IMG/VR virus record: IMGVR_UViG_3300048587_000077
Coordinates: 1 to 29,699 of that record
From: a virus
Length of the DNA stretch: 29,699 bases
Strand: one strand, 5' to 3'
Positions 603 to 23,393 of this stretch are shown here, piece after piece. The number at the start of each line of letters is the position of its first letter. Within the stretch, counting starts at the first letter, position 1. A program made the translations under genes and the position numbers. The notes beneath the pieces were generated by a model that saw only the letters and a list, made by a program, of their open reading frames with translations, made no database searches and was not told the origin of the DNA.

Positions 603-637
603 GACACGTTGACTCCGTACACAGTTCAGGCGTAATG
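603..637 (+). promoter_or_regulatory. Promoter-like repeat, copy 1 (before terS)
   Basis: GACACGTTGACTCCG lies at 603-617. TTGACT (609-614) matches the sigma70 -35 box at 5 of 6 positions. Sixteen bp further is CGTAAT (631-636), a 4/6 match to -10, followed by GC. The start codon of terS is 113 nt from the -35, and a hairpin lies in between. The same 15-mer recurs at 9542 and 23358. Confidence 0.6.
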
Positions 638-675
638 CGCCTCGCCGGTTGATCCGGTTGCAACGATGACCTTCA

Positions 676-707
676 CGCCCCGGGCCTCACCGCCTGGGGC
701 GCCTTTT
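676..707 (+). terminator. Terminator-like hairpin between promoter copy 1 and terS
   Basis: The arms CGCCCCGGGC (676-685) and GCCTGGGGCG (692-701) form a 10-bp GC-rich stem with one G-U pair and a CTCACC loop. CCTTTT follows. The shape is that of an intrinsic terminator with a short U-run. It sits downstream of the promoter-like repeat and only about 7 nt before the terS ribosome binding site, so it may work as an attenuator or RNA-processing element rather than an operon end. Confidence 0.5.
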
Positions 708-721
708 CGGAGTCTCCCAAC

Positions 722-1327
722 ATGCCAGCGCGCAAGAGCGCGCCTCCCGCACAGGAGAGCGCAAAGACATCCCCGGCCAAGCCGACACGAGAACTCAACG
801 ACAGGCAAACCCTGTTCGTGGAGCACTACGTACAGACGCTCAACGCCAAGCAGTCCGCCATCAAGGCCGGCTATTCCGAGAAAACCGCCGAGCAGCAAGG
901 CTATCAACTGCTGCAGAAACCTTCAGTTCAAGCCGCAATCTCGGAAATCAGCGAGAAACGGTCCAAAGCCATCGGCCTGACCACCGAGCGGCTGCTGCAG
1001 GAAGCCATGCGCCTGGCGTTCTTCGACATCCGCAAGCTGGTGGACAAGGACGGCAACCCGCTGCCACTCAACCAACTGGACGACGACACAGCGGCGGCCA
1101 TCCAGGGCTTGGATGTGGCCGCGGTCGGCAACGCTGACGTTGGAGTCGGCCAGGTGCTCAAGTACAAGATCGCCGACAAGAACTCAGCCATCGAGCGCCT
1201 GTTCAAGCACAAGGGCCTGTTCAAAGCCGACAACGAGCAGAACAACCCGGGTGACGCCATGGCCCGCTTCATGGCCGAACTGTCCGCCCGCGGCAGTCGC
1301 CTGCCCGTCAAGAAGTCCGAGCAATGA
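722..1327 (+). CDS. terS: Terminase small subunit
   Basis: This 201-residue protein is the DNA-recognition part of the packaging motor. After a basic, Ala/Pro-rich start, residues about 23-75 carry the small-terminase helix-turn-helix pattern: LNDRQTLFVEHYVQ, then NAKQSAIKAGYS, then a QLLQKPSVQAAI helix. The rest is helical and probably forms the oligomer and the contact with TerL. The ATG at 722 has CGGAG about 9 nt upstream. Its stop overlaps the TerL start (ATGA), as expected for genes translated together at a fixed ratio. Such proteins usually bind a pac or cos site near or inside their own gene; no such site could be picked out by eye. Confidence 0.9.
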   Translation: MPARKSAPPAQESAKTSPAKPTRELNDRQTLFVEHYVQTLNAKQSAIKAGYSEKTAEQQGYQLLQKPSVQAAISEISEKRSKAIGLTTERLLQEAMRLAFFDIRKLVDKDGNPLPLNQLDDDTAAAIQGLDVAAVGNADVGVGQVLKYKIADKNSAIERLFKHKGLFKADNEQNNPGDAMARFMAELSARGSRLPVKKSEQ

Positions 1328-2841
1328 TGCGCGAGGACGATCTTCTGCACGCTCTCGCCGACCCGTGGTGGCGGATCGAGAACCTGTACTGGATCGTGGA
1401 CAAGGACGGCCGACCCGTTCCGTTCAAACCGAACCCCGAGCAGCGCGCGTTCTACGACAACCTGCACACGCGAAACGTCATCCTCAAGGCGCGGCAGTTG
1501 GGGTTTTCAACCCTCATGCAGATCCTGGCGCTTGACCAGTGCCTGTTCAATGACAACTTCGCGGCCGGCGTGATCGCCGACACCCTGCCGAACGCCGTCA
1601 AGCTGTTCCGCAAGGCCAGCTTCGCCTATGACCGCCTGCCCGAGGCCATCCGAGCACTCAAGCCTGTCAAGAAGCGCACCGACACCGAACTTATCTGGGC
1701 GAACGACTCCGCTTTCTCGGTGGGAACCAGCGCCCGCGGCGGCACCCTGCAGATGCTGCACGTATCGGAAATGGGCAAGATCGCCCGCAAGTACCCCGAG
1801 AAGGCGCGCGAGATCGTCACCGGCGCCTTTGAGGCCGTTCCCCTTGGTGGCGGCATCATCGTGGTGGAGTCCACCGCAGAGGGAGCAGCAGGCTCCTTCT
1901 ACGAGCTGACCGACGCTGCGCTCAAGAAGCATGAGGCCAAGGAGCGCCTGAGCGATCTGGACTTCCGCCTTCACTTCTTCCCGTGGTTCAGGTCGGCCGA
2001 CTACCGCCTCAACCCTGACGGCATCCGCATATCTGACGCCGAAGGCAAGTATTTCCACAAGATCGAAGCCGAGACAGCCGCCAAGCTGAGCGACCAGCAG
2101 CGCGCCTGGTACGTCAAGAAGGCCGAGACGCTGGGCCGCGACATGAAGCGCGAGTACCCATCCACTCCAAAGGAAGCCTTCGAGCAGGCCGTGGACGGAG
2201 CGATCTACGGCGATGAAATGACGTTCATGCGCGAGCATGGCCGCATTGCAGACCTGCCCATCGACCCGCTTGAGCCGGTCAACACCTTCTGGGATCTGGG
2301 CTCCAACGACCACACCGCCATCTGGCTGCACCAAGAGATCGGCCAGTGGCACCACTTCATCGGCTACATGCACGACACCCGTGTGGGCCTGCGCAAATGG
2401 TGGCAGCGGCTGGAGGACTTCAAGGCCGAGCACGGATTCGAGCGCTGGGGAAAACACTGGCTTCCTCACGACGGCAAGGCCGAGCGCCAGGGCGAAGAGA
2501 TCGAGTCCGCATTCTCCATCCTGACCAAGAAGCTCAACGTCAAGAACGTGGAGATCGTGCCGCGCGTGTCCGACCTTTCGGTGGGCATCGACCTGACGCG
2601 GGACGCCATGAAGAAGGGCGCCCGCATCTGCGTCGTCAAGTGCGCCGAAGGCATCAAGTGCCTGGACGGCTACCAATACGTGTGGGACGAGAAGCGCGGT
2701 ATGTGGAGCGCCGAGCCGTACCACAACTGGGCCTCCAACGGCGCCGACGCTTTCCGCCAGTGGGCGCAGCGCCCGAATCAGCCAAACATGGACGCCGACA
2801 GCCTGCGCGCCTTCAAGTCGCGGCGGAGGTCTGGCCTGTGA
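1324..2841 (+). CDS. terL: Terminase large subunit (ATPase and nuclease)
   Basis: This 505-residue motor protein pumps DNA into the procapsid and cuts it. In order: an adenine-binding Q-motif region near FKPNPEQRAFYDN; a Walker A variant KARQLGFST (residues 55-63); Walker B with catalytic Glu in LHVSE (145-149); coupling motif VVESTAEG (180-187). In the RNase H-like nuclease the first Asp is in FWDLGSND (D324) and the last acidic residue is in WASNGADAF (D475). All key motifs of both domains are present, so the protein looks complete. The first two codons are both ATG (1324 and 1327). The lack of any lambda-type packaging genes and the P22-like portal suggest headful packaging, which is an inference. 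Confidence 0.95.
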   Translation: MMREDDLLHALADPWWRIENLYWIVDKDGRPVPFKPNPEQRAFYDNLHTRNVILKARQLGFSTLMQILALDQCLFNDNFAAGVIADTLPNAVKLFRKASFAYDRLPEAIRALKPVKKRTDTELIWANDSAFSVGTSARGGTLQMLHVSEMGKIARKYPEKAREIVTGAFEAVPLGGGIIVVESTAEGAAGSFYELTDAALKKHEAKERLSDLDFRLHFFPWFRSADYRLNPDGIRISDAEGKYFHKIEAETAAKLSDQQRAWYVKKAETLGRDMKREYPSTPKEAFEQAVDGAIYGDEMTFMREHGRIADLPIDPLEPVNTFWDLGSNDHTAIWLHQEIGQWHHFIGYMHDTRVGLRKWWQRLEDFKAEHGFERWGKHWLPHDGKAERQGEEIESAFSILTKKLNVKNVEIVPRVSDLSVGIDLTRDAMKKGARICVVKCAEGIKCLDGYQYVWDEKRGMWSAEPYHNWASNGADAFRQWAQRPNQPNMDADSLRAFKSRRRSGL

Positions 2842-2938
2842 ATCCGACCAACGGTGCATTGTGACGAAATAGGCACTAACGCATCAAATTTGTAACAATT
2901 TCTGGCTTAAAACCGCGCTTTCAAAAAGGGAGAAAGTA
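2842..2938 (+). other. AT-rich leader between terL and the next gene
   Basis: This 97-bp gap is clearly richer in A and T than the surrounding DNA. It holds an imperfect palindrome (AAATTTGTAACAATTT, about 2885-2900) and ends in a strong ribosome binding site, AAAGGGAGAA. The 15-mer promoter repeat is absent, and no pair of -35 and -10 boxes with good spacing was found. It is a candidate regulatory leader only. Confidence 0.4.
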
Positions 2939-3442
2939 ATGCAAATGTCACCAGTCCTCTCGCCGGAAGGCCATCCCGTGTTCACCGCCGGTGGCCGCCA
3001 AGCGTGGAAAGTCGCAGAGCACCGCGGCTATGTGTGCTCACTCGAATGGGTGGGCGAAGGCCGCAAGGCAAAACCCGCCATGGTCATCTGGTCGGCCGGC
3101 AACATCCTGCAGGCCGGCACCGAGAGCCTGGGCATGTGGGCCATCCTGCGTACCGCCATCACGGAGTTCGTGGGATTCGACCAGCACGGCAACTGCACCG
3201 GATCGGTCAGCGAGCACTGCCAGCGCGAGGCCAGAGCCGCCATGCCGCTGCTGGGCAAAGACCCCAACGACAAGCAGGCCCACATCGCCCTGTGTGACGT
3301 GGTGCTCAAGTTCGCCGAGCAGTTGGTCCACATGCCGGTGGCCCCGCGCGAGGTGCGCAAGCAGCTTGACACCAGTCCCATGTGGGAGGTCAAGGCCAGC
3401 ATCAAGGAATCCGGCAAGGTGATCCACGAAGGCGAGGTGTGA
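2939..3442 (+). CDS. Phage protein of unknown function between terL and portal
   Basis: The 167-residue product is not recognised. It is soluble, with no signal peptide or membrane segment. The first half looks beta-rich (GYVCSLEWVGEGRKAKPAMVIW) and the second half helical, including CDVVLKFAEQLVHMPVAPRE. GGGAGAA 5-7 nt before the ATG gives a strong start. It sits between packaging and portal genes and stops just before the portal start, so it is probably expressed with the head genes. Its AT-rich leader sets it apart from its neighbours, most of which overlap. A packaging or head-assembly role is a guess from position only. Confidence 0.75.
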   Translation: MQMSPVLSPEGHPVFTAGGRQAWKVAEHRGYVCSLEWVGEGRKAKPAMVIWSAGNILQAGTESLGMWAILRTAITEFVGFDQHGNCTGSVSEHCQREARAAMPLLGKDPNDKQAHIALCDVVLKFAEQLVHMPVAPREVRKQLDTSPMWEVKASIKESGKVIHEGEV

Positions 3443-3443
3443 C

Positions 3444-5609
3444 ATGGCCACGAAGAAACCCACGGCGGTGACGCCAGAAGAGAAGGCCAGCCAGGTGACG
3501 CCATCCGGCGGCCTCAAGATGGACCCGGAATCGGTACGGATGCGCCACGAGCAGCGCAAGAACTGGTTTCTGGGTGAAGCCGCGCGCCAGGCGGCCAACA
3601 GGGCACTCATGGCTAGGTCAGAGTCCTTTTACGACGGCGAGCAGTGGAAGCACGAGGACGCCCAGGAACTGCGCGCCCGTGGGCAGAGGCCGGTGGTTTA
3701 CAACGAGGTCAAGCCGACCATCGACTGGCTGATCGGCACCGAGCGGCAGACGCGGGTTGATTTCATCGTGGTGGCCGAGGAACCAGGCGATGAAGCCAGC
3801 GAGGACGCCACGGCCAAGACCAAGCTGATGAAGTGGCTGGACGCCACCAATCGCGCAGGCTTTGAGCGCAGCCAGGCGGCCGACGACGCTTTCAAGGCCG
3901 GTCTGGGCTGGATCGAGGTCGGGTTGCGAGGCGACAAGAACGGCCCGCCCATCTACATCGGCGCCGAGAGCTGGCGCAACATCATCTACGACAGCCGCGC
4001 CACCAAGGCGGACATGAGCGATGCCCGGTTCATCTTCCGCATCAAGGTGGTGGATCTGGACGTGGCGCTGGCCTGCTTCCCCGACAAGGAGCAGGAGATT
4101 CGATCCTGCATGCAGGAAGGCGAGGATGCCCGCCTGTTTCATGACTGGTTGATCGGTTCCGGCCTGATTTCCAGCCTGGACGACTTCGCCACTGGCTCCA
4201 ACAACGAACTGGACTACCTCATGGATTCGCCGGTGGACCTGTTCAATGGTCGCCCGCGCGTGCTGCTGATGGAGTGCTGGAGCCGCATTCCGGTGCCGAA
4301 CAAGGAGCCCAACCGCTACGGCATCGCCGACCCCATCACTTGGAAGGTGATGTGCTCGATCATGACGGAGAAGGACACGCTGGTGGAGGCCATGAGCCCG
4401 TTCCGCCACGACCGTTTCCCGTTCATCCCGGTCTGGGCCTACCGCAACAAGCGCACCGGCCTGCCGTATGGCCCCATCTGGCAGATGATCGGACCGCAGG
4501 AGTCCCTGAACCACCGCATGGCCCGCGCGCTTTTCGAGGCCAGCAGCAACCAGATCAAGCTGGAGGTCGGCACATGGGACAAGGAGGTCATGGACCTGCA
4601 CGAGCTGCGCGAAGAACTCAACGACCCGAACGGCATGGCCGTGTTCGCCGCTGGCGCACTGTCCGGCGGCAAGGTTCAGGAGCGCGAGCACCAGAGCGCA
4701 GCCATCCAGCAGACCAACCTGGCCTCACTGGACATCCAGTCGCTGCGCCAGATGTCCGGCGTGACCGGTGAGAACCGCGGGCTTGACACGAACGCCACGT
4801 CAGGGCGTGCGGTGCTGGCAAAGCAGGACCAGGGCACGCGGCTGACCACGGAACTGTTCGACAACCTGCTGCTGGCCCGCCAGATGGAAGGCGAGATGGT
4901 GCTTTCGCTGGCCGAGCAATTCATCACCATGCCGGTGACGGTCATCACCGAGGACGACAAGAACACCCAGCAGTACACCACCCTGAACCAGTGGGACGAG
5001 GCCAGCGGCCAGTACGTCAACGACATCACCACCCGTCAGGCGCGTTTCAAGGTTGGCGAGCAGGCGTGGAAACAGACGCTGGCCGAAGCGGCGTTCGACT
5101 CCATGATGCAGGTGTTCACCCAGCTTGCAGCCGCCGCACCGCAGGTGGTGCTGAACATCTTGGACGTACTTTTTGAGATGCACCCGAACCTGCCGAAGAA
5201 GGCAGTGATCCTTGAGCGCATCCGCGCGATCAACGGACAGGCACCGCTGGACGGCAAGCTCTCGCCCGAGCAGCAGGCAGACCGCCGGCGGAAACAGGCG
5301 CAGGCACAAGCGCAGTTCGAGCTGCAGATGGCACAGATGAAAGCCGCCGTGAAGGAAGCGCAGGCCAATGGCGAGAAGCTGGAGGCCGAAACCTGGGCCG
5401 CGCGCCTCGATGCGCTGTACCAGTCCGCACAAGCCGCCGCAACCCTCATGGCCATGCCGCAGGCAATGCCGGTGGCCGACGAACTGCTGCGCTCCGCAGG
5501 GTTCCGCGACATGGCCGCGCCGCAGGTGATCGACGCGCAGCAGCCAGCGCAGCCGATGCCGCCGGCCGAGACAGTTCCACCAACCGACCCAGCAGGAGTA
5601 CCAGCATGA
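3444..5609 (+). CDS. Portal protein, P22-like
   Basis: The 721-residue product fits the size of P22-type portals, which form the dodecameric ring at the head vertex where TerL docks and DNA passes. The start has the family pattern of a long helix (ENWF-like KNWFLGEAARQ), then SFYDGEQW and RPVVYNEVKPTIDWLIG. Near residues 440-460, VTGENRGLDTNATSGRAVLAK and QDQGT match the conserved region before the stem. The last 130 or so residues are a charged Gln/Ala helix followed by a Pro-rich tail, equivalent to the P22 portal barrel. GAGG lies about 8 nt before the ATG. The next gene overlaps its stop (ATGA). Confidence 0.92.
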   Translation: MATKKPTAVTPEEKASQVTPSGGLKMDPESVRMRHEQRKNWFLGEAARQAANRALMARSESFYDGEQWKHEDAQELRARGQRPVVYNEVKPTIDWLIGTERQTRVDFIVVAEEPGDEASEDATAKTKLMKWLDATNRAGFERSQAADDAFKAGLGWIEVGLRGDKNGPPIYIGAESWRNIIYDSRATKADMSDARFIFRIKVVDLDVALACFPDKEQEIRSCMQEGEDARLFHDWLIGSGLISSLDDFATGSNNELDYLMDSPVDLFNGRPRVLLMECWSRIPVPNKEPNRYGIADPITWKVMCSIMTEKDTLVEAMSPFRHDRFPFIPVWAYRNKRTGLPYGPIWQMIGPQESLNHRMARALFEASSNQIKLEVGTWDKEVMDLHELREELNDPNGMAVFAAGALSGGKVQEREHQSAAIQQTNLASLDIQSLRQMSGVTGENRGLDTNATSGRAVLAKQDQGTRLTTELFDNLLLARQMEGEMVLSLAEQFITMPVTVITEDDKNTQQYTTLNQWDEASGQYVNDITTRQARFKVGEQAWKQTLAEAAFDSMMQVFTQLAAAAPQVVLNILDVLFEMHPNLPKKAVILERIRAINGQAPLDGKLSPEQQADRRRKQAQAQAQFELQMAQMKAAVKEAQANGEKLEAETWAARLDALYQSAQAAATLMAMPQAMPVADELLRSAGFRDMAAPQVIDAQQPAQPMPPAETVPPTDPAGVPA

Positions 5610-5809
5610 ACGGCATTGGAGCCGTCGCATCTCAGCAGAAAGCGAGCGACTACGACAAATGGCAGGCCCACGACGATCTCATGACCATCGTGCGCGCCAA
5701 GGAGATCCAGGCCGATCCCAAGCGCATGAAGAACGTCCAGCGTGCCGCCAAGGAAAAACTCGAAGAGCAGAAAGCTCTCAAGACAATTGCCGATGGCGGC
5801 AAGGTCTGA
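5606..5809 (+). CDS. Small charged helical protein after the portal
   Basis: The 67-residue product starts in an ATGA overlap with the portal stop and has AGGAG about 8 nt upstream, so translation is well supported. It is predicted helical and rich in Lys, Asp and Glu (for example KRMKNVQRAAKEKLEEQK). It has no membrane segment and no recognised domain. Its position between portal and scaffold suggests a minor assembly factor, but nothing in the sequence shows a function. Confidence 0.7.
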   Translation: MNGIGAVASQQKASDYDKWQAHDDLMTIVRAKEIQADPKRMKNVQRAAKEKLEEQKALKTIADGGKV

Positions 5810-5872
5810 TTGAACGTCATCGAAGCAACCGGTCACGGACTCCCTCAACAACCGCTCGCAGGAGCATGAGCC

Positions 5873-6820
5873 ATGACCAAATCCCATCTTTCCCCCGCCG
5901 AAGCCGAAGCCCTGAAAGCCATTGAAGCCGCCGAGGCCGCCGGCAAAGACCCGTTCGGTGATCTGGACGACGACACCGCCGCTCTGGAGCCCGACGCCCA
6001 GGCTTCCAGCGACCCCGCAGCATTGGACCCGAACACCACCGACGATGAGGCGTTCAATGACGTAGCCGAAAGGACAGCCGCCGAAGCTGCCGCCCAACAG
6101 GCTGCTGATGGCGTTGACGAATCTGTGCTGAACGAACTGGCCGACCCGCTTGGCATCAAGCAGCCGGCGCCGACCGCATACGCCGCCGAGATCCCGGCCG
6201 AATTGGACGGCAAGCGCACCGACCTGATGACCGAGAAGGCCGAGGCGCTGGAAAAACTCATGTCCGGCGAGATTGAGGCCAAGGACTATGCCGCCGTCGA
6301 GATCAAGGTGGCCAACGAGCTGGCCAAGATCGACCGCCAGATCTCCCGCGCCGAAACCCTGGCCGAGATCAACCAGCAGACCAGCGCGCGTTACGAGGGC
6401 ATGGTGATCGCCCAGATCGTGGACACCACCAAGCCGGTGCTGGACTACACCAAGGACGCAGCCGCACAGCGCCAGTTCGACGTGGTGATGGCTGGTCTGC
6501 GCGCCGACCCGGCCAATGCCGCCAAGAGTTTTGCCGACCTGGCCTCCGATGCGAACAAAACGGTTCTGGCCATCCGTGGCCTGAGCCTGGACGGTCAGCA
6601 GAAACAGCAGGAAACCGCACAGCAGACGCAGGCCAAACCCACTGGCACCCGCATGCCGACCGAGAAACCGCCGGCCACCCTGCGCGGCGTTCCGGTGGCA
6701 GCCACCCCGAACACCGGCGGCGGCGTGGTCGAGCAGATGGCCAATCTGTCCGGCGCAGCGTTCGAGGCCGGCTTCCAGAAACTCAGCCCGGCTCAACAGG
6801 CTGCACTGCTGGGAGAGTGA
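5873..6820 (+). CDS. Capsid scaffolding protein (probable)
   Basis: The 315-residue product has the make-up of phage scaffolds: a very acidic, Ala-rich N-terminus (DPFGDLDDDTAALEPD), a long central helix region likely to be coiled coil (about residues 115-175), a Gln/Pro/Thr-rich flexible stretch near 240-275, and a short C-terminal helix. It lies between portal and major capsid protein, which is the usual place. GGAG precedes the ATG by 8 nt; another ATG at 5866 is out of frame and not used. Scaffolds guide procapsid assembly and are then removed. No protease motif was seen in it. The call rests on position and composition, not on a clear family motif. Confidence 0.7.
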   Translation: MTKSHLSPAEAEALKAIEAAEAAGKDPFGDLDDDTAALEPDAQASSDPAALDPNTTDDEAFNDVAERTAAEAAAQQAADGVDESVLNELADPLGIKQPAPTAYAAEIPAELDGKRTDLMTEKAEALEKLMSGEIEAKDYAAVEIKVANELAKIDRQISRAETLAEINQQTSARYEGMVIAQIVDTTKPVLDYTKDAAAQRQFDVVMAGLRADPANAAKSFADLASDANKTVLAIRGLSLDGQQKQQETAQQTQAKPTGTRMPTEKPPATLRGVPVAATPNTGGGVVEQMANLSGAAFEAGFQKLSPAQQAALLGE

Positions 6821-6822
6821 CC

Positions 6823-7017
6823 ATGAGCAAGGAGCAGCGCGCCGGTCTGGTGCTGGAGATGCGCGCCGGAGAGTGCGTAGTTTTGCGCAACGTCGGTGGC
6901 GTTGACTCCGAACCGGTAACTGTGATACTCGAAAAGAAGGACGGGCAGACCGCTCGCATCAGGTTTCAGGCTTCACCGACCGTCAGGATCGGAAAACCCG
7001 AGAAACTCGCGGCGTAA
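6823..7017 (+). CDS. CsrA/RsmA-like small RNA-binding protein (candidate)
   Basis: The 64-residue product aligns by eye with CsrA. LVLEMRAGE (residues 9-17) matches the CsrA start LILTRRVGE. VTVIL (32-36) matches strand 2. GQTARIRFQAS (41-51) matches the CsrA segment G-N-Q-V-R-I-G-V-N-A-P. R14 and R45 fall where CsrA has R7 and R44, the latter an RNA contact. A longer loop (about 23-31) separates the first two strands. CsrA binds GGA motifs in mRNA leaders and controls translation. Directly downstream is the capsid leader, which has such a motif in a hairpin loop. The ATG at 6823 is preferred over a GTG at 6817; the preceding gene ends at 6820. A plain small beta-barrel protein is the alternative. 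Confidence 0.6.
   Translation: MSKEQRAGLVLEMRAGECVVLRNVGGVDSEPVTVILEKKDGQTARIRFQASPTVRIGKPEKLAA
6901..6929 (+). promoter_or_regulatory. Promoter-like repeat, partial copy (before capsid gene)
   Basis: GTTGACTCCGA at 6901-6911 shares its 11 bases with the copies at 9542 and 23358 but lacks the preceding GACAC. TTGACT (6902-6907) is followed after 16 bp by GATACT (6924-6929), the same spacing as in the other copies. It lies inside the CsrA-like gene and would drive the major capsid gene about 200 nt downstream. Being inside a coding region, it could be chance. Confidence 0.35.
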
Positions 7018-7031
7018 GCCAGTCCTCAAGG

Positions 7032-7059
7032 CCCCGGCCAGACCGGGGAGTTTCCCCGG
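7032..7059 (+). promoter_or_regulatory. Mutually exclusive hairpins in capsid leader
   Basis: Three segments compete. CCCCGG (7032-7037) pairs with CCGGGG (7043-7048). The same middle segment, as CCGGGGA (7043-7049), pairs over 7 bp with TCCCCGG (7053-7059). Only one hairpin can form at a time. Such a layout is typical of attenuators or RNA switches. No long U-run follows, so control of ribosome access or RNA stability is as likely as termination. Confidence 0.5.
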
Positions 7060-7060
7060 C

Positions 7061-7074
7061 GCGCAGGAGTGCGT
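7061..7074 (+). promoter_or_regulatory. GGA-loop hairpin, candidate CsrA-type site
   Basis: GCGC (7061-7064) pairs with GCGT (7071-7074, one G-U), showing AGGAGT in a six-base loop. CsrA proteins prefer GGA in a hairpin loop. This loop is also a Shine-Dalgarno for an out-of-frame ATG at 7076. The capsid ATG at 7101 has its own GAGG about 7 nt upstream. The stem is short, so the site is tentative. Confidence 0.35.
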
Positions 7075-7100
7075 CATGACAAAACCTCAAGAGGTAAATC

Positions 7101-8213
7101 ATGGCACAGACCACTTCCATCCTGCCGACCGATCCGGTCAAACGCAAAGCCTGGGCGGCGAAAGTCGCCAACGACGCTGCCCAGAAGCAGTATTTCGCCC
7201 GCATGATCGGTGAAGAGGGCTCGCGCTCCGCAGTCGTGCGCAAGACCGAACTCGAAAAGGGTGCCGGCGACGAAGTGACGACCACCCTGGTCGCCAAGCT
7301 CCAAGGCCGCGCCCGCCGCGAAGGCGAAAAGCTCGCCGGCCACGAGTTCAAGATGTCGCATGCCTCGCACACCATGCGGATCAACGAGCACCGCCATGGC
7401 GTGAACATCGGCGCCCGCATCGACCAGGACCGCGTGGGCTTCAACCTGCGCAAGCAGGGCCGCGAGAAGCTGACCGACTACATCAAGGAGCTGTACGAGC
7501 ACACCATCGTGGCCGCCGCTGCCGGCGCCCGCGGTGTGGGCGAAGAACTCCACACCCTGGAAGAAGGCTACGCCGGCTACCCGAACGCCCTGCGCGCTCC
7601 CGATGCCAAGCACCTGTTCGTCGGCCCCGATGGCTCCAAGGCCAAGAACACGCTGGTCGCTGGCGACAAGCTGAGCCTGGCCACCATCAACAAGCTGCGC
7701 ACCAAGGCCGTCCGCATGCTCGGCGGCAAGGGCAAGCCGGTGAAGATGGAAAAGGTCATGAAGGGCGGCAAGGAGTGCTTCGTGTTCGCCGTCTGCCCCG
7801 AGGTGATGCAGGACATCCGCGACGACGTGGGCGCCCAGGGCTGGTTTGAAGCCCAGAAGGCCCTGACCGCCGCCGTGGGCAAGGAAGCCGAACTGTTCAA
7901 GGGCGGTGCCGGCATGTTCAACGGCGTGCTGACCGACGAGATGGAGTTCGGCGTGTACTTCTCGGACTACGGTTCGGGCTCGAACATCGCCGCCACCCGC
8001 AGCCTGTTCATGGGCGCCAACGCTGTCGTGGTGGCCAACGGCACCAAGGGCATGAAGGATGGCATGACCGTGAGCATTGACGAGGACAGCGATGACCGCG
8101 GCCACGACGCCATCCTGTACTTCGAGACGATCTTCGGTGCGGACAAGTCCCAATACGAGGGCCTGGACTACTCCATGATCTCCGTGGACTCGGCCTACAC
8201 CGCCGCCGTCTGA
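7101..8213 (+). CDS. Major capsid protein, N4gp56 type
   Basis: The 370-residue product has the features of the N4gp56 family of HK97-fold capsid proteins. These are a short N-terminal arm (TDPVKRKAWAAKV), the LVAKLQGRARREGEKLAGHE region with HASHTMRINEHRHGV, and then KQGREKLTDYIKELYEH. Further on come the HLFVGPDGSK and TINKLRTKAVRMLGGKGKPV segments. It ends in the region with DRGHDAILYFETIFG. It builds the icosahedral shell. GAGGTAAATC before the ATG gives the ribosome binding site. Codon choice is strongly biased to C/G endings, fitting high expression. The leader carries competing hairpins and a candidate CsrA-type site, so expression may be controlled at RNA level. Confidence 0.9.
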   Translation: MAQTTSILPTDPVKRKAWAAKVANDAAQKQYFARMIGEEGSRSAVVRKTELEKGAGDEVTTTLVAKLQGRARREGEKLAGHEFKMSHASHTMRINEHRHGVNIGARIDQDRVGFNLRKQGREKLTDYIKELYEHTIVAAAAGARGVGEELHTLEEGYAGYPNALRAPDAKHLFVGPDGSKAKNTLVAGDKLSLATINKLRTKAVRMLGGKGKPVKMEKVMKGGKECFVFAVCPEVMQDIRDDVGAQGWFEAQKALTAAVGKEAELFKGGAGMFNGVLTDEMEFGVYFSDYGSGSNIAATRSLFMGANAVVVANGTKGMKDGMTVSIDEDSDDRGHDAILYFETIFGADKSQYEGLDYSMISVDSAYTAAV

Positions 8214-8250
8214 TAACCCCGCCACCTGAACCTTCCAAGGAGAAACTGCA

Positions 8251-8942: not shown

Positions 8943-9543
8943 CTTTGAACCCTACGTGATGCCCTACGTCATCGGCTGCCCGCTGCCGGTGATGGAGCAC
9001 CACGCACGCCTGACCGCCATCGACTGGTGCCGAAAGACGCTGTGCCTGCAGCGCACACTGGACCCAGAGTTGGCGAACGGAACTACGCACGAGATCGACA
9101 TTGCACCGCCGACCGGCATGCAGATCGTGCGGCCGATGGATGTGGCCGTCGATGGCCGAGAGCGCCATCTGGCCACCGGCCTCGAAGGCATCCGCCTGGC
9201 GCGCTCCAGCACGCAGCACGAGTTCGCCTACACGACCGACAACCAGACGCTGCTGGTGTATCCGTTGGAAGCTGCTGGAGCCCAGGTCGTCATCACCGCC
9301 GCCCTGATGCCGGCGCTTGGCACATCGACCGGGCTGGATGACGACATCGCCCTGGAGCACGCCGACGACATCGCCAAGGGCATCGCAGCCGCGGTCATGG
9401 GAATCCCGAAGCAAGCCTTCACGGACCATGGGCTTGCCGCACTCAAAAAGACTGAATACGAGCAGCGCCGCGCCATCGTTGCGGCCAAATATTCGCGCGG
9501 CATTGCTGCCGCAAAACTGCGCACGCCGACCCCGTTTTTCTGA
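8929..9543 (+). CDS. Probable head-tail connector or adaptor protein
   Basis: The 204-residue product is placed by the ATG at 8929, inside the end of the preceding gene; the open frame extends further upstream, but only over that gene. Segments include LTAIDWCRKTLCLQRTLDP, QIVRPMDVAVDGRE and FAYTTDNQTLLVYP. It then has helices around EHADDIAKGIAAAVMGIP and a basic end. This mix of long helices around a beta core, followed by another adaptor-like gene, fits the ring proteins that join portal to tail in podoviruses. Its stop TGA is the first part of the promoter-like repeat at 9542. The exact family is uncertain. Confidence 0.6.
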   Translation: MLWRDFEPYVMPYVIGCPLPVMEHHARLTAIDWCRKTLCLQRTLDPELANGTTHEIDIAPPTGMQIVRPMDVAVDGRERHLATGLEGIRLARSSTQHEFAYTTDNQTLLVYPLEAAGAQVVITAALMPALGTSTGLDDDIALEHADDIAKGIAAAVMGIPKQAFTDHGLAALKKTEYEQRRAIVAAKYSRGIAAAKLRTPTPFF

Positions 9544-9576
9544 CACGTTGACTCCGAGGCCAGTCCACGCATCATG
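9542..9576 (+). promoter_or_regulatory. Promoter-like repeat, copy 2 (before adaptor gene)
   Basis: GACACGTTGACTCCG lies at 9542-9556 and overlaps the TGA stop of the upstream gene. TTGACT (9548-9553) is followed after 16 bp by CATCAT (9570-9575) and GC. The next start codon is 67 nt from the -35, the same as in copy 3. The leader between them is also partly conserved (shared GAG, ATGCCGC, CCCAC, AGGC). Confidence 0.6.
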
Positions 9577-9614
9577 CCGCGCAATCCACCCGCCGGCACT
9601 TGCGAGGCTTATCA

Positions 9615-10268
9615 ATGGCACTCACCGCGAAATCCATACTCGAACAGGTCGCCCGCGATCTGAACGACACCACCAGCATCCGCTGGACAACGCAAGACCT
9701 CGCGCGGTACTTCAACGACGGACAGCGCTACATCATCACCAAGCGCCCCGATGCGAGCCACCTGACAGTGGAGCACGCGCTGGTGGCTGGCGCTGCCCAG
9801 ACTCTGCCGGCCGGCGGCGAGAAGCTGATCGACGTGTCGCACAACACGACCGGCAACAAGCGGGCGATCTCGCGCGTGGCGTCTGCGCTGCTGGACGCCC
9901 AGCTCGCCGGCTGGCGCGGCCTGACCGGCAAGGTCGAGATCCTGCACTTCATGTACGACGAGCGCGAGCCGCGCAGCTTCGATGTGTACCCGCCTGCATT
10001 GGTCGGCGCCAACGTGTCGCTCAAGTACGCCGCTCAGACCGTGGACATCACGGTCCCTGCGCTGGGCACCACCACCGACGACATCACCGGCAACCTGAGT
10101 CTGTCCGACCTGTTCGCCAACGCGCTGCGCAACTACGTGATGTTCCGCTGCTACAGCAAGCAGACCGAGCTGGCCAACCCAACGCTGGCCACCGGCTTCA
10201 AGCAACTCTGTGACGCCGATCTCGGCGACGAGGTTGCTGGCACGGCCGCTGTTTCCCCCAAGGACTGA
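9615..10268 (+). CDS. Phage adaptor (head-tail completion) protein
   Basis: The 217-residue product begins MALTAKSILEQVARDLND and continues with IRWTTQDLARYFNDGQRYI. That is the usual opening of the gp10/adaptor-like proteins found after N4gp56-type capsid genes. The middle is beta-rich and the C-terminal helix region reads SLSDLFANALRNYVMFRCYSK, another family hallmark. These proteins form a ring under the portal that closes the head and receives the tail. The ATG at 9615 with GAGG 7 nt upstream is chosen over a TTG at 9600 that lies before the ribosome binding site. It is the first gene after promoter-like copy 2. Confidence 0.75.
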   Translation: MALTAKSILEQVARDLNDTTSIRWTTQDLARYFNDGQRYIITKRPDASHLTVEHALVAGAAQTLPAGGEKLIDVSHNTTGNKRAISRVASALLDAQLAGWRGLTGKVEILHFMYDEREPRSFDVYPPALVGANVSLKYAAQTVDITVPALGTTTDDITGNLSLSDLFANALRNYVMFRCYSKQTELANPTLATGFKQLCDADLGDEVAGTAAVSPKD

Positions 10269-10289
10269 CCCCCATAGGAGCGCACAACC

Positions 10290-10793: not shown

Positions 10794-10801
10794 GGTGCAC
10801 C

Positions 10802-14021: not shown

Positions 14022-14022
14022 C

Positions 14023-14499: not shown

Positions 14500-14502
14500 C
14501 CG

Positions 14503-14993: not shown

Positions 14994-14995
14994 CC

Positions 14996-15640: not shown

Positions 15641-16104
15641 CCAAGCTGCTGACCTACACCCTGTGCATCGCCCTGCTGGGATCGGTGCTGACCAACTGCA
15701 CCACGCACAACCGGCTGCAGGCCGTCCGCGTCGAACTGGCCGAAACCCGCGAGCAGTACGCCGAGGCCGTCCGACTGGCCGAAGCCAGCCGCCGCGCCGC
15801 CGAGCGCACGCACACCACCGAGATCCAGACCATCACCCAGAGGGCCGACCATGAAAAGCAAACTCTTGCCGCTACTGTTGACCGCCTTTCTCGCAGCCTG
15901 CGGGACCGTCCAGCCCGCCCAGCCGGTGGTGCAGTGCCCGCGCCTGCCGCCGGTCCAGTGGCCTGCACCGGAGCCCAGCTTTACCGACCGGATGGAGAGT
16001 TTCTTGTCGGGGAATCTGCCAGAGCCGACCGGCTCCGCGTACAGCTTGCCGAGTGCCAAGCTCGGTACGACGCCGCGGTGAAGCTGACCAACACGGAGAA
16101 CTGA
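15637..16104 (+). CDS. Rz-like inner-membrane spanin (i-spanin)
   Basis: The 155-residue product has a short cytoplasmic start, one membrane segment at about residues 4-20 (LLTYTLCIALLGSVL) and a long periplasmic helix rich in Ala, Glu and Arg (about 30-95). Then LRDRPARPAGG leads to a C-terminal part with two cysteines (VACTGAQLYRPDGEFL, LAECQARYDAAV). This matches the DUF2514/Rz type. Together with an outer-membrane partner it fuses the two membranes in the last step of lysis. It follows the endolysin with ATGA overlap and carries the o-spanin gene wholly inside it. Confidence 0.85.
   Translation: MTKLLTYTLCIALLGSVLTNCTTHNRLQAVRVELAETREQYAEAVRLAEASRRAAERTHTTEIQTITQRADHEKQTLAATVDRLSRSLRDRPARPAGGAVPAPAAGPVACTGAQLYRPDGEFLVGESARADRLRVQLAECQARYDAAVKLTNTEN
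15851..16081 (+). CDS. Rz1-like outer-membrane lipoprotein spanin, embedded
   Basis: The 76-residue product lies in the +1 frame entirely within the i-spanin gene. MKSKLLPLLLTAFLAAC is a lipoprotein signal peptide with an L-A-A-C lipobox, so Cys17 would be lipidated. The mature part is Pro-rich (CPRLPPVQWPAPEPSF), as in known o-spanins. It would span the periplasm from the outer membrane to the i-spanin. The embedded arrangement is the lambda-like class, and the predicted signal is too clear to be chance. Confidence 0.88.
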   Translation: MKSKLLPLLLTAFLAACGTVQPAQPVVQCPRLPPVQWPAPEPSFTDRMESFLSGNLPEPTGSAYSLPSAKLGTTPR

Positions 16105-16107
16105 CAC

Positions 16108-17724: not shown

Positions 17725-20700
17725 TGGCACGCAAAGACCTACCCAACCCGAACAGCCCGAACTACCTCTCGCGCCTGCGCGAAGAGATGCATGTGCTCAT
17801 GGGCAAGCTCGGGAACGGCCGCGAGCGAGCCCTGACCCTGGCAGATGCCATCGAGTCCGGCGTGATCGTGCCTGGGCCTGGCGGCGGTCTGATCCCCGGC
17901 CCAGGCATTGGCGGTGGAAGTGCCGCACCATACGAGCCCGACCTGACGCCGCCGCCGCAGCCCGGCGCGTTCATGGCCACGCCCGCGATCTCGCACATCC
18001 TGATCGAGCAGGCCCAGCCGTTCTACACCCAGGGTCACGGGCATCTGCGCACGCACGTCTATGGCGCTATCCATGGCGACCCAGGTGATCCGCTGCCTGT
18101 ATTTGCCGATGCCATCGAGGTTGGCCAGTTTGACGGAACGATCTGGGGCATGCCGAGCAACCCGGCCACCACCTGGCACCTGTGGATCAAGTGGGAGAGC
18201 GTGGACGGCGTGCTCAGTGCAACGCCCGCCGGTGGAACGAACGGAGTGGCGGCCACAACCGGGCAGGACGTGTCGAGCCTGCTGGAGGCGCTGACCGGCC
18301 AGATCACAAGCAGCGAGCTGTCAACCAGCCTGAGCACGCCGATCAGCCAGATCCCGGGCATCGCCAGCGCGCTGGCACAAGAAATCCTCGACCGGGCGCA
18401 GGCTGACGCTGACGAGGCACAGGACCGGGCAGACGCCATCCAGGCTGCAGCCGATGCTGCCGCGGCCGATCTCGCCGCCGAGGTGGGCAACCGCGTTGCC
18501 GCGATCAGTGCCGTGGACACGGCGATTCGAGACGACCTTGCCACCGCAGATGCCGCTGTCGTCACCGCGCTGACCAGCGCGTTCCAGTCGGCCGACGCCG
18601 CCGTCCTGGCCAGCGCCAACAGCTACACCTTCTCCAAGACCGAGATCAACAGCGCGATTGCGGCCCTTGGCACGCAGCTGACGACCAACTTCCAGGCGGC
18701 AGACGCCGCGACGCTGGCCAGCGCGCAGAGCTTCACCTACAGCCGGTCGGCCATCGACGCCGCCGACACGGCCACTCTGAACACGCTGCGCGCCGAGTTC
18801 GCCGCCGCTGACAGCACGACTCTGGCCGCCGCTCAGAACTACACCTACGCCAAGGCGACCATCGACAGCGCCATCGCCACCAGCGCCAGCACGCTGCGCT
18901 CACAACTCACAGGCGGAAGCACAGCCACCGATCTGAACATGCTGTCATCTGGCCTGCTGTACCAGATGCGCGAGACGAGCGCCGCCGCAGACAACGCGCT
19001 GGCGCAGCAGATCACGCTGCTTTCAGCCGGCGCGGGCGAGCAGTTCGACTACTCCAACATCTGGTACTACGACGCCGGCACCGAGAGCTGGACCACCAAC
19101 AGCACGGGCTCCACGCTGTCTGCCGTGGCCGGCTGGTTGCGGCTGGTGTCCAACTCCGGCACGTTGACCGACCGCTATTTCATCAGCCCGGACAACCTGG
19201 GCATCAATGGATCGAAATACCCACAGGTTCGCATGCGCGTGCGCAAGGTCGGATCGCCAACCTGGGAGGGGGCGATCTACTTCATCACGACCACCGACGC
19301 GACCTACAACGTCGCCAAGTCACTGGCCGTGGCCGAGCCAACCTACGACGCCAACGGCATCGGCCTGGTGACGTTCAACATGCCGGCCGGATGGACCAGC
19401 GCCACGATCCGCCAGATCCGTTTCGATGCGTCCGGCTCGATCACGCCGACCGACTATTTCGAGCTGGATTGGGTGGCCATCGGGCGGCCGAGCCCGGGCG
19501 CGTCGAGTGCGCAGCTGCAGGCGCTGCAGACAGCCATGATCGCAGGGGATGACGCCAACGCGCAGGACATCGTTTCTCTGAACGCCGCAATTGCAGGCAA
19601 GGCTGATTCGTCCGCCTTGAGCGCACTGGAAACACGAGTCACATCGGCAGAGGGTGTGAACACGTCGCAGGGCTCCTCGATCACCTCGCTGCAAAACAGC
19701 GTGACGACGATCAACAGCACGCTGTCCACCAAGGCTGATGCATCCGCGCTCACGGCGCTGACAACGCGCGTGACCAGCGCCGAGGGCGTCAACACGACCC
19801 AGGGTAGCAGCATCACCGACCTGCAGAACTCGCTGGCCACGACGAACAGCACGGTGGCAACAAAGGCGGACGCCAGCGCACTGAGCGCGCTGGATACGCG
19901 CGTGACCGCAACCGAGAACACGAACACCAGCCAGGCGACATCGATCACGAACCTGAACAGCTCGCTGGCCACGACGAACACCAACGTCACAGCGGCTCAG
20001 ACCGCTGCCAACAACGCAGCGACGGCAGCGGCAGCGGCCCAGACCACCGCGAACAGCGCCACCACCAGTGCTGCCACGGCCAACACGTTGCTGGCCGACA
20101 TCGCCAGTGACGCGAAGCTGACACCGGTCGAGAAGCAATCGGTTCGCAGCGAGTGGAACGTGGTGGCCGCCGAGAAGGCAGGCATCAACACGCAGGCCAG
20201 CACCTTCTCAGTCACGACCGAGAACACGGCCTACAACAATGCATTCCAGACCCTGGCGAACTACCTGAACGCCGGGGCGACCTGGACCAGCGGCGTTCCA
20301 TCCTGGATCAGCGATGCGAACCTGAGCGCGACGACAACCATCGTCGGCGCCACCTTCCGTAGCAACTGGCAGAACCTCTACACCGCACGCACGGCGCTGC
20401 TGAACGCGATTGCAGCCAAGGCCAAGGCGCTGGCGGACGCGGCACAGGCCACCGCCAACGCAGCGAACACGCTGGCCGGAACCAAGGCCGATGCCAGCGC
20501 GCTGAACACGACGAACACGAACGTCAGCAACCTGAGCGGAACCGTCACGGCGCTCTCGAACAACTACACGGCGTTCAAGGCCGCTGTCGAAGATCCGGCA
20601 ACCGGGCTGGCGAGCAAGGCCAGTGTCGCCTACGTGGACCAGGCCGAGGCGGATGCTGTGTCCGCGGCAGCATCGGCCGCATCGACCCTTGTTTCATCCG

Positions 20701-22724
20701 TCAACTCTTCGTTATCCGCTGCCATCAGTGCAGAGGCCACCACCCGCGCCACCCAGACCGGCGAGCTGTACGCGCAGTACACGCTCAAGGCCGATGTCGG
20801 CAACCTGATCTCGGGCTACGGCCTGGCCAGCACCGCGAACAACTCCGCTCCGACCAGCGCCTTCGGCATCCAGGCTGGCCAGTTCTTCGTGGCGCCGCCC
20901 ACGGTAAACCAGGCCACGGCACCGTCCACCGGCCTCTACAAGGGCTTCGTGTGGCGCAACAGCACGACCGGGCTGGTGCAGTATTGGACCGGCAGCGCGT
21001 GGAGCACGACTCCACAGACCCTACCATTTGTGGTGCAGGCCGTGCCGACGACGGTCAACGGCGTGGCGGTCCCGGCCGGCATGTACGCCGAATCGGCGTT
21101 CATCATGAACGGCACGATCACGAACGCGAAGATCGCCAACCTGGCAGTTGATGACGCCAAGATCGCCAGCCTGTCGGTGTCGAAGCTGACGGCCGGGTCG
21201 GTGGCGGTCGGGCAATACGCCCAGAGCACCGGCTACGTCGCCGGCTCCAGCGGCTGGCGCATCAACGGCGACGGAACGGCTGAATTTTCCGGCGTGGTGG
21301 TGCGCGGCACGATCTTCGCCAGCCAGGGCGCCATCGGAGGCTGGACCATCGGCAGCAACTACCTGCAGTCCAACAGCTACGTGCTGGGCGAGTCCGGCAC
21401 GCGCCTGAACAGCGACGGAACCGGGCAGATCGGAGGCGTGCGCGTAACCGCCGATTCCGTCGAGTCGCACACCTTCGATACGCCTTCCGAGCCATACGGG
21501 TTCCGACTCAGGTACGATGGGTCAAGCGAGTTCAAGGGCGCCGTCGTCAAGAGTGGCACCGGGCGCGTGCTGCTGACTGCAGTCGGTGACGCGGTTCCGC
21601 CGTGGGTCACGACCCTGCAGCAAGCTGACGAAACCGGCGTGTCGCTCGTCGCCGATCCCGACCCAGCGACAAACACCGCGACGATCAAGAGCCTGGTGCC
21701 GGGCTACCTGATCGACATGGACAGCGATGACGTGAGCGTGACGATTGCGTTTTCACCGCCATCCATCGCTGTTCGGTCTGACCAGAGCCAGGCATCCACA
21801 ACCTGGGCCGATGTGCAGGGCGTGGTGTGGACGCTGGATGCGGACAGCTACTACGAGTTCGATGCTATCGCTCGTGTCGATGGCCCGAACGGCGATTTCA
21901 AGGACTGGAGCATCGGACTGCTGCCGCCGTCCGGGTCGGTCGGAAACGGAATCTCCACCCAGCTCTCAGGGAACCTCGGTTCTACCCCCGCCGCAGTTGT
22001 CAAAGAGGTGTACCAGCTCGATGCAAATGGCCGCATGGAGTTCGTGTGCCGGCAGGCTGCTACTGGGATTGGTGGAACGCCATTCGGCATGAACCAGCAC
22101 ATCAAGGCGTTCATCTACACCGCATCGGCAGGTCAGATGAAAGTGCAGTTTCGGCGTGCAAGCGGGACCGCATCAAACATCCTCCGGCGAGGAAGTGTGT
22201 TCAAGCTCCAGAAGGTCCAACTGGCACCAGAGCTTGGGCAGCTTGAGGCCGTTCAAACCGTACCGTCGTCGGCTGCGTCATCCGTCACCGGCTCCACCTT
22301 CGCTGTACCTGGCGTCAAGCTGGAGTTCAAGACCAACGGCACATGGAGCCTGACGCGCAACGGGACAACAACCCTTACCGGAAGCTGGCTGCAAGGGTCC
22401 CCGGTCAGCTCGGGGCAGGCCGGTAACTACGACATCCTGTTTGAGGTGTCTCCGCGCACGATGGGCGGTAGCGGTCCATCGGCCACCGTCAAGATGGACG
22501 TGACGGCAGGTACATGGAAGTGGATGAACTGGACGCGCAAGGCCGACATCTGGATGGACGTTTCCTCAGTCTCCGATCCGGCCGGAACGCGCACATGCAC
22601 GTTCAGCATCACGACAAAACTGCGCCAGCGGTCAACCGGGGTCATCACGACGGTGGCGACGACCAGTGTCACGCTTTCCGGAACCACTACGCACTCATCT
22701 GCCGATCAGGGGACGACGCCATGA
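17724..22724 (+). CDS. Long tail fibre, 1666 residues
   Basis: This is the largest complete gene. The N-terminal 120 residues are a probable tail-attachment part with a Gly/Pro linker (VPGPGGGLIPGPGIGGG). Residues about 200-400 are Ala-rich coiled coil with near-repeats around ASAQSFTYS and AAQNYTYAKATI. About 430-600 is a beta domain. Three exact-length 44-residue repeats begin at residue 626. A domain with LTPVEKQSVRSEWN follows at about 790-900. Around 1054-1300 are FFVAPP, TNAKIANLAVDDAKIASL and IGGWTIGSNYL segments, typical of siphovirus-type tip/fibre (J-like, DUF1983) proteins. The end (about 1300-1666) is beta-rich and is the likely receptor-binding part. It probably trimerises. It overlaps both neighbours by 1-4 nt. 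Confidence 0.85.
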   Translation: MARKDLPNPNSPNYLSRLREEMHVLMGKLGNGRERALTLADAIESGVIVPGPGGGLIPGPGIGGGSAAPYEPDLTPPPQPGAFMATPAISHILIEQAQPFYTQGHGHLRTHVYGAIHGDPGDPLPVFADAIEVGQFDGTIWGMPSNPATTWHLWIKWESVDGVLSATPAGGTNGVAATTGQDVSSLLEALTGQITSSELSTSLSTPISQIPGIASALAQEILDRAQADADEAQDRADAIQAAADAAAADLAAEVGNRVAAISAVDTAIRDDLATADAAVVTALTSAFQSADAAVLASANSYTFSKTEINSAIAALGTQLTTNFQAADAATLASAQSFTYSRSAIDAADTATLNTLRAEFAAADSTTLAAAQNYTYAKATIDSAIATSASTLRSQLTGGSTATDLNMLSSGLLYQMRETSAAADNALAQQITLLSAGAGEQFDYSNIWYYDAGTESWTTNSTGSTLSAVAGWLRLVSNSGTLTDRYFISPDNLGINGSKYPQVRMRVRKVGSPTWEGAIYFITTTDATYNVAKSLAVAEPTYDANGIGLVTFNMPAGWTSATIRQIRFDASGSITPTDYFELDWVAIGRPSPGASSAQLQALQTAMIAGDDANAQDIVSLNAAIAGKADSSALSALETRVTSAEGVNTSQGSSITSLQNSVTTINSTLSTKADASALTALTTRVTSAEGVNTTQGSSITDLQNSLATTNSTVATKADASALSALDTRVTATENTNTSQATSITNLNSSLATTNTNVTAAQTAANNAATAAAAAQTTANSATTSAATANTLLADIASDAKLTPVEKQSVRSEWNVVAAEKAGINTQASTFSVTTENTAYNNAFQTLANYLNAGATWTSGVPSWISDANLSATTTIVGATFRSNWQNLYTARTALLNAIAAKAKALADAAQATANAANTLAGTKADASALNTTNTNVSNLSGTVTALSNNYTAFKAAVEDPATGLASKASVAYVDQAEADAVSAAASAASTLVSSVNSSLSAAISAEATTRATQTGELYAQYTLKADVGNLISGYGLASTANNSAPTSAFGIQAGQFFVAPPTVNQATAPSTGLYKGFVWRNSTTGLVQYWTGSAWSTTPQTLPFVVQAVPTTVNGVAVPAGMYAESAFIMNGTITNAKIANLAVDDAKIASLSVSKLTAGSVAVGQYAQSTGYVAGSSGWRINGDGTAEFSGVVVRGTIFASQGAIGGWTIGSNYLQSNSYVLGESGTRLNSDGTGQIGGVRVTADSVESHTFDTPSEPYGFRLRYDGSSEFKGAVVKSGTGRVLLTAVGDAVPPWVTTLQQADETGVSLVADPDPATNTATIKSLVPGYLIDMDSDDVSVTIAFSPPSIAVRSDQSQASTTWADVQGVVWTLDADSYYEFDAIARVDGPNGDFKDWSIGLLPPSGSVGNGISTQLSGNLGSTPAAVVKEVYQLDANGRMEFVCRQAATGIGGTPFGMNQHIKAFIYTASAGQMKVQFRRASGTASNILRRGSVFKLQKVQLAPELGQLEAVQTVPSSAASSVTGSTFAVPGVKLEFKTNGTWSLTRNGTTTLTGSWLQGSPVSSGQAGNYDILFEVSPRTMGGSGPSATVKMDVTAGTWKWMNWTRKADIWMDVSSVSDPAGTRTCTFSITTKLRQRSTGVITTVATTSVTLSGTTTHSSADQGTTP
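19599..19994 (+). repeat. Three tandem 132-bp repeats in the fibre gene
   Basis: Units begin at 19599, 19731 and 19863, exactly 132 nt (44 residues) apart. Each starts K-A-D-(S/A)-S-A-L and contains T-R-V-T, a T-Q-G-S-S or similar turn and an N-S-L helix. The pattern is that of a trimeric coiled-coil stalk. DNA identity is partial, so the duplication is not recent. Confidence 0.85.
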
Positions 22725-23359
22725 TCCTGAAATACATCGCGTTGCCTGCCGTGGCCAACGGCATGAATGTCGAGTACCACGCACCTGGCGGGGCGCTGCT
22801 GTCCGAAGACTCTGTGACCGTCACCGTCTTCTCATGGGTTCGTCTGGAGGACTTCACAGCCCAGCGAGAGCCCGACGCACGCACGGTTGTGGTGTTCGGA
22901 TCGGATTTTGATGTCGGAAACCCCGAGCAGTCGCTGGCAACGCATCCGGAAAGCCCGCTGATCGGTGGTGACGTTCGCAGTGTTCCTGACCCCGCTTCAT
23001 CGCTGTCCGATCTGAAAGCGGCCAAGAACGCAGCGATCAATGCCGCGCGACTGCGCGCCAACCAGTCCCATTTCGTCTTTGCAGGCAAGCAGATCGCGGT
23101 GGACCCATTGAGCCGAAGCGACATTGACGCGGCGCACGGTGCGATCCTGATGCTGGGCGCCATGCCCGGCGGCTGGCCTGGCGGATGGAAGGCGATGGAC
23201 AACACGATCCTGCCGATCCCAGATCTGGCGACCTGGGGCCAGTTCTACGGCGCCATGGTGGCGCAGGGCACGTCCAACTTCAACCACGCCCAGGCGCTCA
23301 AGGCCCAGCTTGCCGCAGCGACCACACCAGAAGAGGTGGAGGCTGTGCCGGTCTGGTGA
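22721..23359 (+). CDS. DUF4376-like fibre assembly or fibre-tip protein
   Basis: The 212-residue product starts at the ATG at 22721 in ATGA overlap with the fibre; the open frame upstream only overlaps the fibre. Its C-terminal half (about residues 90-212) has the DUF4376 pattern: LSDLKAAKNAAINAARLRAN, FVFAGKQIAVDPLSRSDID, and the ending ALKAQLAAATTPEEVEAV. Such domains are typical of small proteins encoded directly after fibres and are thought to help fibre assembly or stay at the tip. Its TGA stop forms part of promoter-like copy 3. The family call is moderately firm; the role is inferred. Confidence 0.7.
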   Translation: MILKYIALPAVANGMNVEYHAPGGALLSEDSVTVTVFSWVRLEDFTAQREPDARTVVVFGSDFDVGNPEQSLATHPESPLIGGDVRSVPDPASSLSDLKAAKNAAINAARLRANQSHFVFAGKQIAVDPLSRSDIDAAHGAILMLGAMPGGWPGGWKAMDNTILPIPDLATWGQFYGAMVAQGTSNFNHAQALKAQLAAATTPEEVEAVPVW

Positions 23360-23393
23360 CACGTTGACTCCGAGCGCGGTCTGGGCACTATGC
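23358..23393 (+). promoter_or_regulatory. Promoter-like repeat, copy 3 (before GNAT gene)
   Basis: GACACGTTGACTCCG lies at 23358-23372 and overlaps the TGA stop of the upstream gene. TTGACT (23364-23369) is followed after 16 bp by CACTAT (23386-23391) and GC. The GTG start at 23431 is 67 nt from the -35, exactly as in copy 2. A small hairpin GGCCC/GGGCC lies in the leader. Confidence 0.6.

Follow-up and report, generated by a model that had tools for sequence, protein, structure and literature searches.

Late gene blocks and a repeated element

The stretch of viral DNA analysed here (the window) comprises positions 1 to 29,699 of the IMG/VR virus record IMGVR_UViG_3300048587_000077. A near-identical 57,759-nt IMG/VR record (G001) includes the window in reversed orientation (~37626 down to 7928). 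The large terminase (TerL) encoded by G001 is identical to that of the window. The element under study is a 15-mer, GACACGTTGACTCCG, found as exact + strand matches at 603-617, 9542-9556 and 23358-23372, all three between genes as a preliminary description had reported, together with a shorter copy, GTTGACTCCGA, exact on the + strand at 6901. The still shorter GTTGACTCCG is exact at 608, 6901, 9547 and 23363. When up to three mismatches to the 15-mer were allowed, six matches were obtained, whereas shuffled sequences gave 1.22 on average and 0 of 100 shuffles reached six.

The four copies fall at the heads of four late gene blocks on the + strand, and each carries TTGACT followed 16 bp later by a -10-like hexamer, exactly as first described. 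Putative late promoter A (603..636), with the extended -35 at 603-617, the -10 CGTAAT at 631-636 and a predicted start near 643, precedes the terminase block, which is opened by the gene for the terminase small subunit (TerS; 722..1327, PHROG 51, E 1.1e-34). Promoter B (6901..6929; GTTGACTCCGA at 6901-6911, GATACT at 6924-6929, predicted start ~6936) precedes the capsid block, whose main gene encodes the major capsid protein (7101..8213, PHROG 334, E 1.6e-69). Promoter C (9542..9575; extended -35 at 9542-9556, CATCAT at 9570-9575, predicted start ~9582) heads a structural block opened by a connector-like protein gene (9615..10268, PHROG 399, E 1.6e-46), and promoter D (23358..23391; extended -35 at 23358-23372, CACTAT at 23386-23391, predicted start ~23398) heads the end-of-morphogenesis block opened by an acetyltransferase gene (23431..24033, PHROG 1249, E 1e-14). 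Copies 2 and 3 of the 15-mer begin within the stop codon (TGA) of the upstream gene, and the 67 nt reported between TTGACT and the next start codon hold for these two copies but not as a rule, the distance being ~61-66 nt in the relatives G005 and G006 as judged from homolog match positions. The copy at 6901 does lie upstream of the capsid gene; it is not intergenic, being located inside a CsrA-like open reading frame (ORF; 6823-7017) ~200 nt before the capsid start. Elsewhere in the window, a tRNA-Arg call by ARAGORN (27633-27728, minus strand) lies opposite a very long virion ORF and is probably a false positive.

G001 contains exact GTTGACTCCG five times in total, at the four window copies and at one more site, G001:49486 (= L094:1487), which is positioned on the opposite strand in the immunity region, just past the gene following a CI-like repressor; the repressor and a Cro-like protein of this region were identified by Pfam. 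The spacer and -10 of this fifth copy are similar to those of promoter A, and it may drive a recombination-gene operon. The two one-mismatch matches to GTTGACTCCG in G001 are sites within window ORFs. No motif copy at one mismatch or fewer was present in the CI-Cro gap of G001, ruling out the CI operator as the function of the repeat.

Promoter anatomy of the sites

Relatives were collected via the capsid or the terminase, independently of the motif, and were scanned for TTGACTCCG (including CCG); since this core was demanded by the scan, its invariance is no evidence. Outside the core, counting 28 nt from the initial T of TTGACT led to a T in 45/45 non-redundant copies, position 24 was A in 30/45, and positions 26 and 27 were mostly A. 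The same -10 pattern was recovered when a larger collection was stripped of most capsid-type copies, leaving 45 distinct sites. The core was also flanked by a following A in 42/45 and a preceding G in 37/45 copies. We read the conserved T and the A-rich positions as a -10 of the sigma70 type, set at a constant spacing of 16 bp, so that the sites combine what the sequence of a sigma70-type promoter would have (TTGACT, a 16-bp spacer and the conserved last T of the -10) with an extra element common to several predicted late promoters of one genome. The -10 hexamers themselves are weak, usually matching the sigma70 consensus at 3-4 of 6 positions. Promoter identity is strongly supported at the level of sequence, and the sites are presumably transcribed. 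A 5'-terminal hairpin common to all transcripts was rejected as an explanation, the folds past the -10 being variable (mean z -0.72) and not general, and Rfam gave no match.

A predicted promoter within the CsrA-like gene

Promoter B offers a view of selection on the element, as it overlaps codons. Motif carriers supplied 13 distinct CsrA-like ORFs, in which Val-Asp-Ser is encoded as GTT GAC TCC in 13/13 while neighbouring codons vary; these phages use GTT at 12-14%, GAC at 76-81% and TCC at 22-26%. The Ile codon forming the -10 is ATA in 11/11 ORFs, against an ATA usage of 1-2%. Because both GTT-GAC-TCC and the rare ATA are frozen, selection at 6901 acts on the DNA rather than on the protein, and in terms of selection promoter B is real. 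In the same gene, GTT GAC and the 16-bp spacing are retained by most motif-negative relatives, but TCCGA is not.

The host gene of promoter B encodes a protein of 64-66 aa, which was matched by Pfam CsrA in 6/13 aligned homologs (best 7e-6), by an RsmE profile (1.6e-4) and by hhalign to E. coli CsrA (91%), and whose model is all beta with a predicted local distance difference test score (pLDDT) of 80; on this evidence it is classed as a divergent member of the CsrA/RsmE family. It carries a loop, GGVDSEP, that is encoded by the promoter B -35 and is missing from E. coli CsrA and from the CsrA of phage JC1.

Two hairpins were observed on the late strand, GGCGCGC-AGGA-GTGCGTC in the capsid leader (window 7058-7075) and GCGCGC-AAGA-GCGCGC at the terS start (728-743). 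Both have stems that covary across relatives, and scanning of the window and of pieces of G001 gave no others on the late strand. In most relatives the capsid start is preceded, at a distance of 31-42 nt, by a hairpin with an RGA-type tetraloop and a compensating stem (covariation, with 99% of cells paired), and the capsid leaders of phages Parlo and Itty13 hold a similar one. Given the adjacent CsrA-like gene, the two hairpins resemble CsrA targets, and as a hypothesis the phage CsrA may act on late mRNAs of the phage itself.

Distribution among related phages

The phage is one of a little-known family of Burkholderiales phages, and its capsid and gene order place it near the Bcep22-like podoviruses. 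Its capsid shows 31-33% identity to Lessieviruses among the matches listed and its terminase <45% to any named phage, which places it in a related group outside the Bcep22-like genus Lessievirus. About half of the Bcep22-related relatives carry TTGACTCCG, usually at 2-5 sites per locus and on the late strand in every relative. The sites precede TerS and the PHROG-399 gene, fall within or ahead of the small ORF that comes before the capsid, and lie before or near the acetyltransferase, thereby providing counterparts of promoters A to D; those of D precede the acetyltransferase in G005 and G006 and occupy similar places in G008 and G009. Counted over whole contigs, exact TTGACTCCGA occurs four times each in G002, G005, G006 and G008, five times in G009 and three times in G007, on one strand within each contig, and not at all in the motif-negative virus records G010, G011, G012, G013 and G015. 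Random scatter through coding regions, which would have spoken against a promoter function, was not seen; relatives have the motif at matching borders between blocks.

Two bacterial assemblies that each hold a motif-negative relative (G014 and G016) contained TTGACTCCGA twice and once, about the level of a reversed-pattern control, and a host promoter class was rejected on this lack of enrichment in two host-type assemblies. A first scan of viral contigs for ACGTTGACTCCG plus ATGC yielded 53 stretches, most of which were put down to chance; G001 was the one contig with three.

On the capsid tree the motif carriers form two groups separated by a long branch and the motif needs two changes; their monophyly was neither shown nor rejected (one clade, approximately unbiased test p 0.465). 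Carriers show mosaicism in their TerS, TerL and capsid genes, and no other carrier-specific gene was found among the window genes compared.

A winged-helix protein accompanies the motif

One candidate stood out in a comparison of the early genes. It is encoded outside the window, at G001:37962-38213 (~window -586 to -335), by an 83-aa ORF (77 aa from the preferred start), has unannotated homologs of 66-77 aa, and in most cases no other gene separates it from the first motif site. A profile hidden Markov model (HMM) built from it matched in all 14 checkable motif-positive genomes and in none of the 10 motif-negative loci compared (Fisher p 5e-7 for 14/0 vs 0/10, which is not a true probability given the shared descent of the genomes). 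When viral contigs were searched by protein alignment alone, 22/22 loci had TTGACTCCG downstream, eight of them on contigs new to the analysis, with 13-27 nt between the protein match and the site in 11/22 loci and 147-4354 nt in the rest. Winged-helix sequences with identities as low as 35-37% were still paired with the same motif, and the pairing held without exception where it could be checked.

The candidate could be assigned to no PHROG at E 0.01, matched none of 50,697 phage records and had at best weak helix-turn-helix matches in Pfam. AlphaFold modelled it as a winged helix (pLDDT 87), which matched the DNA-binding folds of MecI, Fur and MarR at Z ~9-10.5, and we infer that the protein binds DNA. 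In this lineage an HNH/AP2 homing-endonuclease-like gene (window 2-475, minus strand; Pfam HNH_3 3e-7) sits between the winged-helix gene and promoter A. The gene before the winged-helix gene encodes a four-cysteine protein (zf97; alignment A2; L093:711-1004, minus strand) that with its homologs forms an unannotated family; it was rejected as the specific factor, since motif-negative genomes have it too, unaccompanied by the winged-helix gene.

A probable recognition footprint and sister lineages

Comparison of the flanks delimited the conserved element. Over the six bases upstream of TTGACT, likeness was 0.53 within genomes and 0.37 between genomes, a difference reached in 0/2000 label permutations, as illustrated by three occurrences of GACACG in the window and of TCGCCA in G002, and by TTCGG, ATCGG and CTCGG in G005. 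Over bases -12 to -7 there was no difference (0.27 within and 0.26 between genomes). The suggestion that the repeats are recombination points for module exchange, prompted by their position at module borders and compatible with the mosaic TerS, TerL and capsid genes, is weakened to a very improbable one by these data, as same-genome likeness ends at the footprint and the DNA-level constraint takes in the -10.

Sister lineages without TTGACTCCG have the same TTGAC core with other flanks, namely CACGGGTTGAC in L121 (2369, 3076 and 17673) and L141 (2356 and 3067), CTTCCGTTGAC in L112 (3220, 3640 and 9827) and TCGGTTGA in L140 (2457 and 13779). With 2-4 sites each, these sister motifs are tentative. 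The flank pattern tentatively suggests lineage-specific recognition by a trans-acting factor.

Proposed mechanism and alternatives

We consider it fairly likely that the repeats form a family of late promoters read by the host sigma70 RNA polymerase together with the phage winged-helix protein, which would probably be an activator. The repeats would be the -35 regions of promoters of the form GTTGACTCCGA-N12-NANAAT with a 16-bp spacer, at which transcription would be restarted at four late gene blocks. The winged-helix protein, produced from the end of the early/middle operon, would most likely contact the -35 and its flanks (~-41 to -26) and offset the weak -10. An activator or a modified polymerase had been suggested to read the unusually long -35 element, and this idea gains from the motif at block borders, the invariant -10 T and the co-occurring winged-helix protein upstream of the first site. 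Anatomy, conservation, positions and the DNA-level selection in the CsrA-like gene are strongly supported; that the sites are transcribed and bound by the winged-helix protein, and that it activates rather than represses, is what we infer from these sequence patterns.

Several observations weigh against this proposal. TTGACT is already a good sigma70 -35, which is unusual in an activator-dependent promoter; since motif-negative relatives keep TTGAC and the 16-bp spacer inside the CsrA-like gene without CCGA, CCGA is unnecessary for a promoter there; the co-occurrence of protein and motif may reflect common descent; and with a fifth copy on the other strand, in the immunity region, the promoter set is not purely late.

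The strongest alternative, which we regard as unlikely but serious, accepts the promoters but takes the conserved flank as an operator at which the winged-helix protein or another phage protein silences the late genes early or in lysogeny. Repression is possible because the -35 is good, so that near-consensus promoters could work unaided, and because copy 5 adjoins the CI repressor gene among the immunity genes; the footprint moreover overlaps the -35, a common repressor position. Activation by the winged-helix protein is nevertheless preferred because the -10s are weak and because the gene usually ends the lytic early operon beside the first late promoter, a typical location for a late activator, while the motif-free CI-Cro gap argues that the sites are not CI operators.

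That the sites are ordinary host sigma70 promoters alike by ancestry, with the winged-helix gene as a linked passenger, would agree with TTGACT, the 16-bp spacer and the -10-like hexamer and with a co-occurrence produced by descent. We judge it less probable still, as CCGA at positions 7-10 is nearly fixed though unneeded by sigma70 (CCG was required by the scan, the A being found independently), the flanks are homogenised within genomes, TTGACTCCGA stays at control level in the two host-type assemblies, and the same motif accompanies winged-helix sequences with as little as 35-37% identity. Stoperators, the asymmetric non-promoter repressor sites dispersed over the genomes of cluster A mycobacteriophages (PMC9283540), resemble the present sites in being asymmetric, dispersed, intergenic and in a single orientation relative to transcription, but are a very improbable model for them, because a -10 stands at a fixed distance with its invariant T and frozen rare ATA, each genome has only 4-5 copies, and G001 has no immunity-repressor operator at early lytic promoters among the sites, none falling in the CI-Cro gap.

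Comparison with known phage systems

The arrangement recalls the C and Mor proteins of phage Mu, Ogr of P2 and MotA of T4, in which, as proposed here, several promoters per genome with a longer-than-sigma element are read by the host RNA polymerase with a small, earlier-made phage DNA-binding protein, represented here by the candidate. MotA replaces the -35, and the C and Ogr sites lie further upstream, whereas the present element overlaps and keeps a near-consensus -35. The T4 MotA N-terminal domain (1bja) was one of many equal fold matches to the winged-helix model, a likeness that shows no kinship, and unlike the known activators the family here lacks a PHROG and matches no named phage. Lambda, too, has a sigma70 promoter flanked by conserved DNA ahead of its late genes, with the gene for the regulator Q just upstream, much as the candidate regulator gene lies here. 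Lambda, however, has one late promoter and uses antitermination, while the phage studied here has at least four predicted promoters and no constant downstream terminator was seen; with four or five sites per near-complete genome and variable leader folds, late control of the Q type is not indicated.

The Bcep22-like podoviruses (Lessievirus JC1 and BcepIL02, Parlo and Itty13) share the late order TerS-TerL-portal-CsrA-capsid-...-acetyltransferase and have promoter-like sites in matching gaps. By eye, these sites have a strong -10 within a dyad such as GGTTCTATAATCGAACC, unlike those described here, and in the gaps (L181-L184) GGTT-N9-AACC or GTTT-type dyads surround the -10 at late block borders. 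The CsrA of these four phages is without the -35-encoding loop, and their capsid promoter would fall after csrA. The CsrA gene of JC1 has been called a moron of unknown role (PMC9144972). The word promoter is absent from the JC1 paper and from that on CSP3 (PMC10269572), the papers searched gave no report of a late-transcription factor or promoter for this group of temperate podoviruses, and a literature search with a 9-mer gave unrelated papers only among the matches listed.

Implications

The analysis yields a specific promoter class, a candidate regulator without annotation and predicted start sites, and promoter B provides an example of a promoter housed within coding sequence. It is plausible, although somewhat less likely than not, that an undescribed family of tiny winged-helix proteins adapts the host sigma70 polymerase to an extended -35 at several late promoters, and that sister lineages retain where the promoters lie and their 16-bp spacing but exchange the -35 flank, presumably with factors of their own, to give interchangeable promoter-specificity classes. 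Phages of this group may keep their promoter positions yet change the recognition code.

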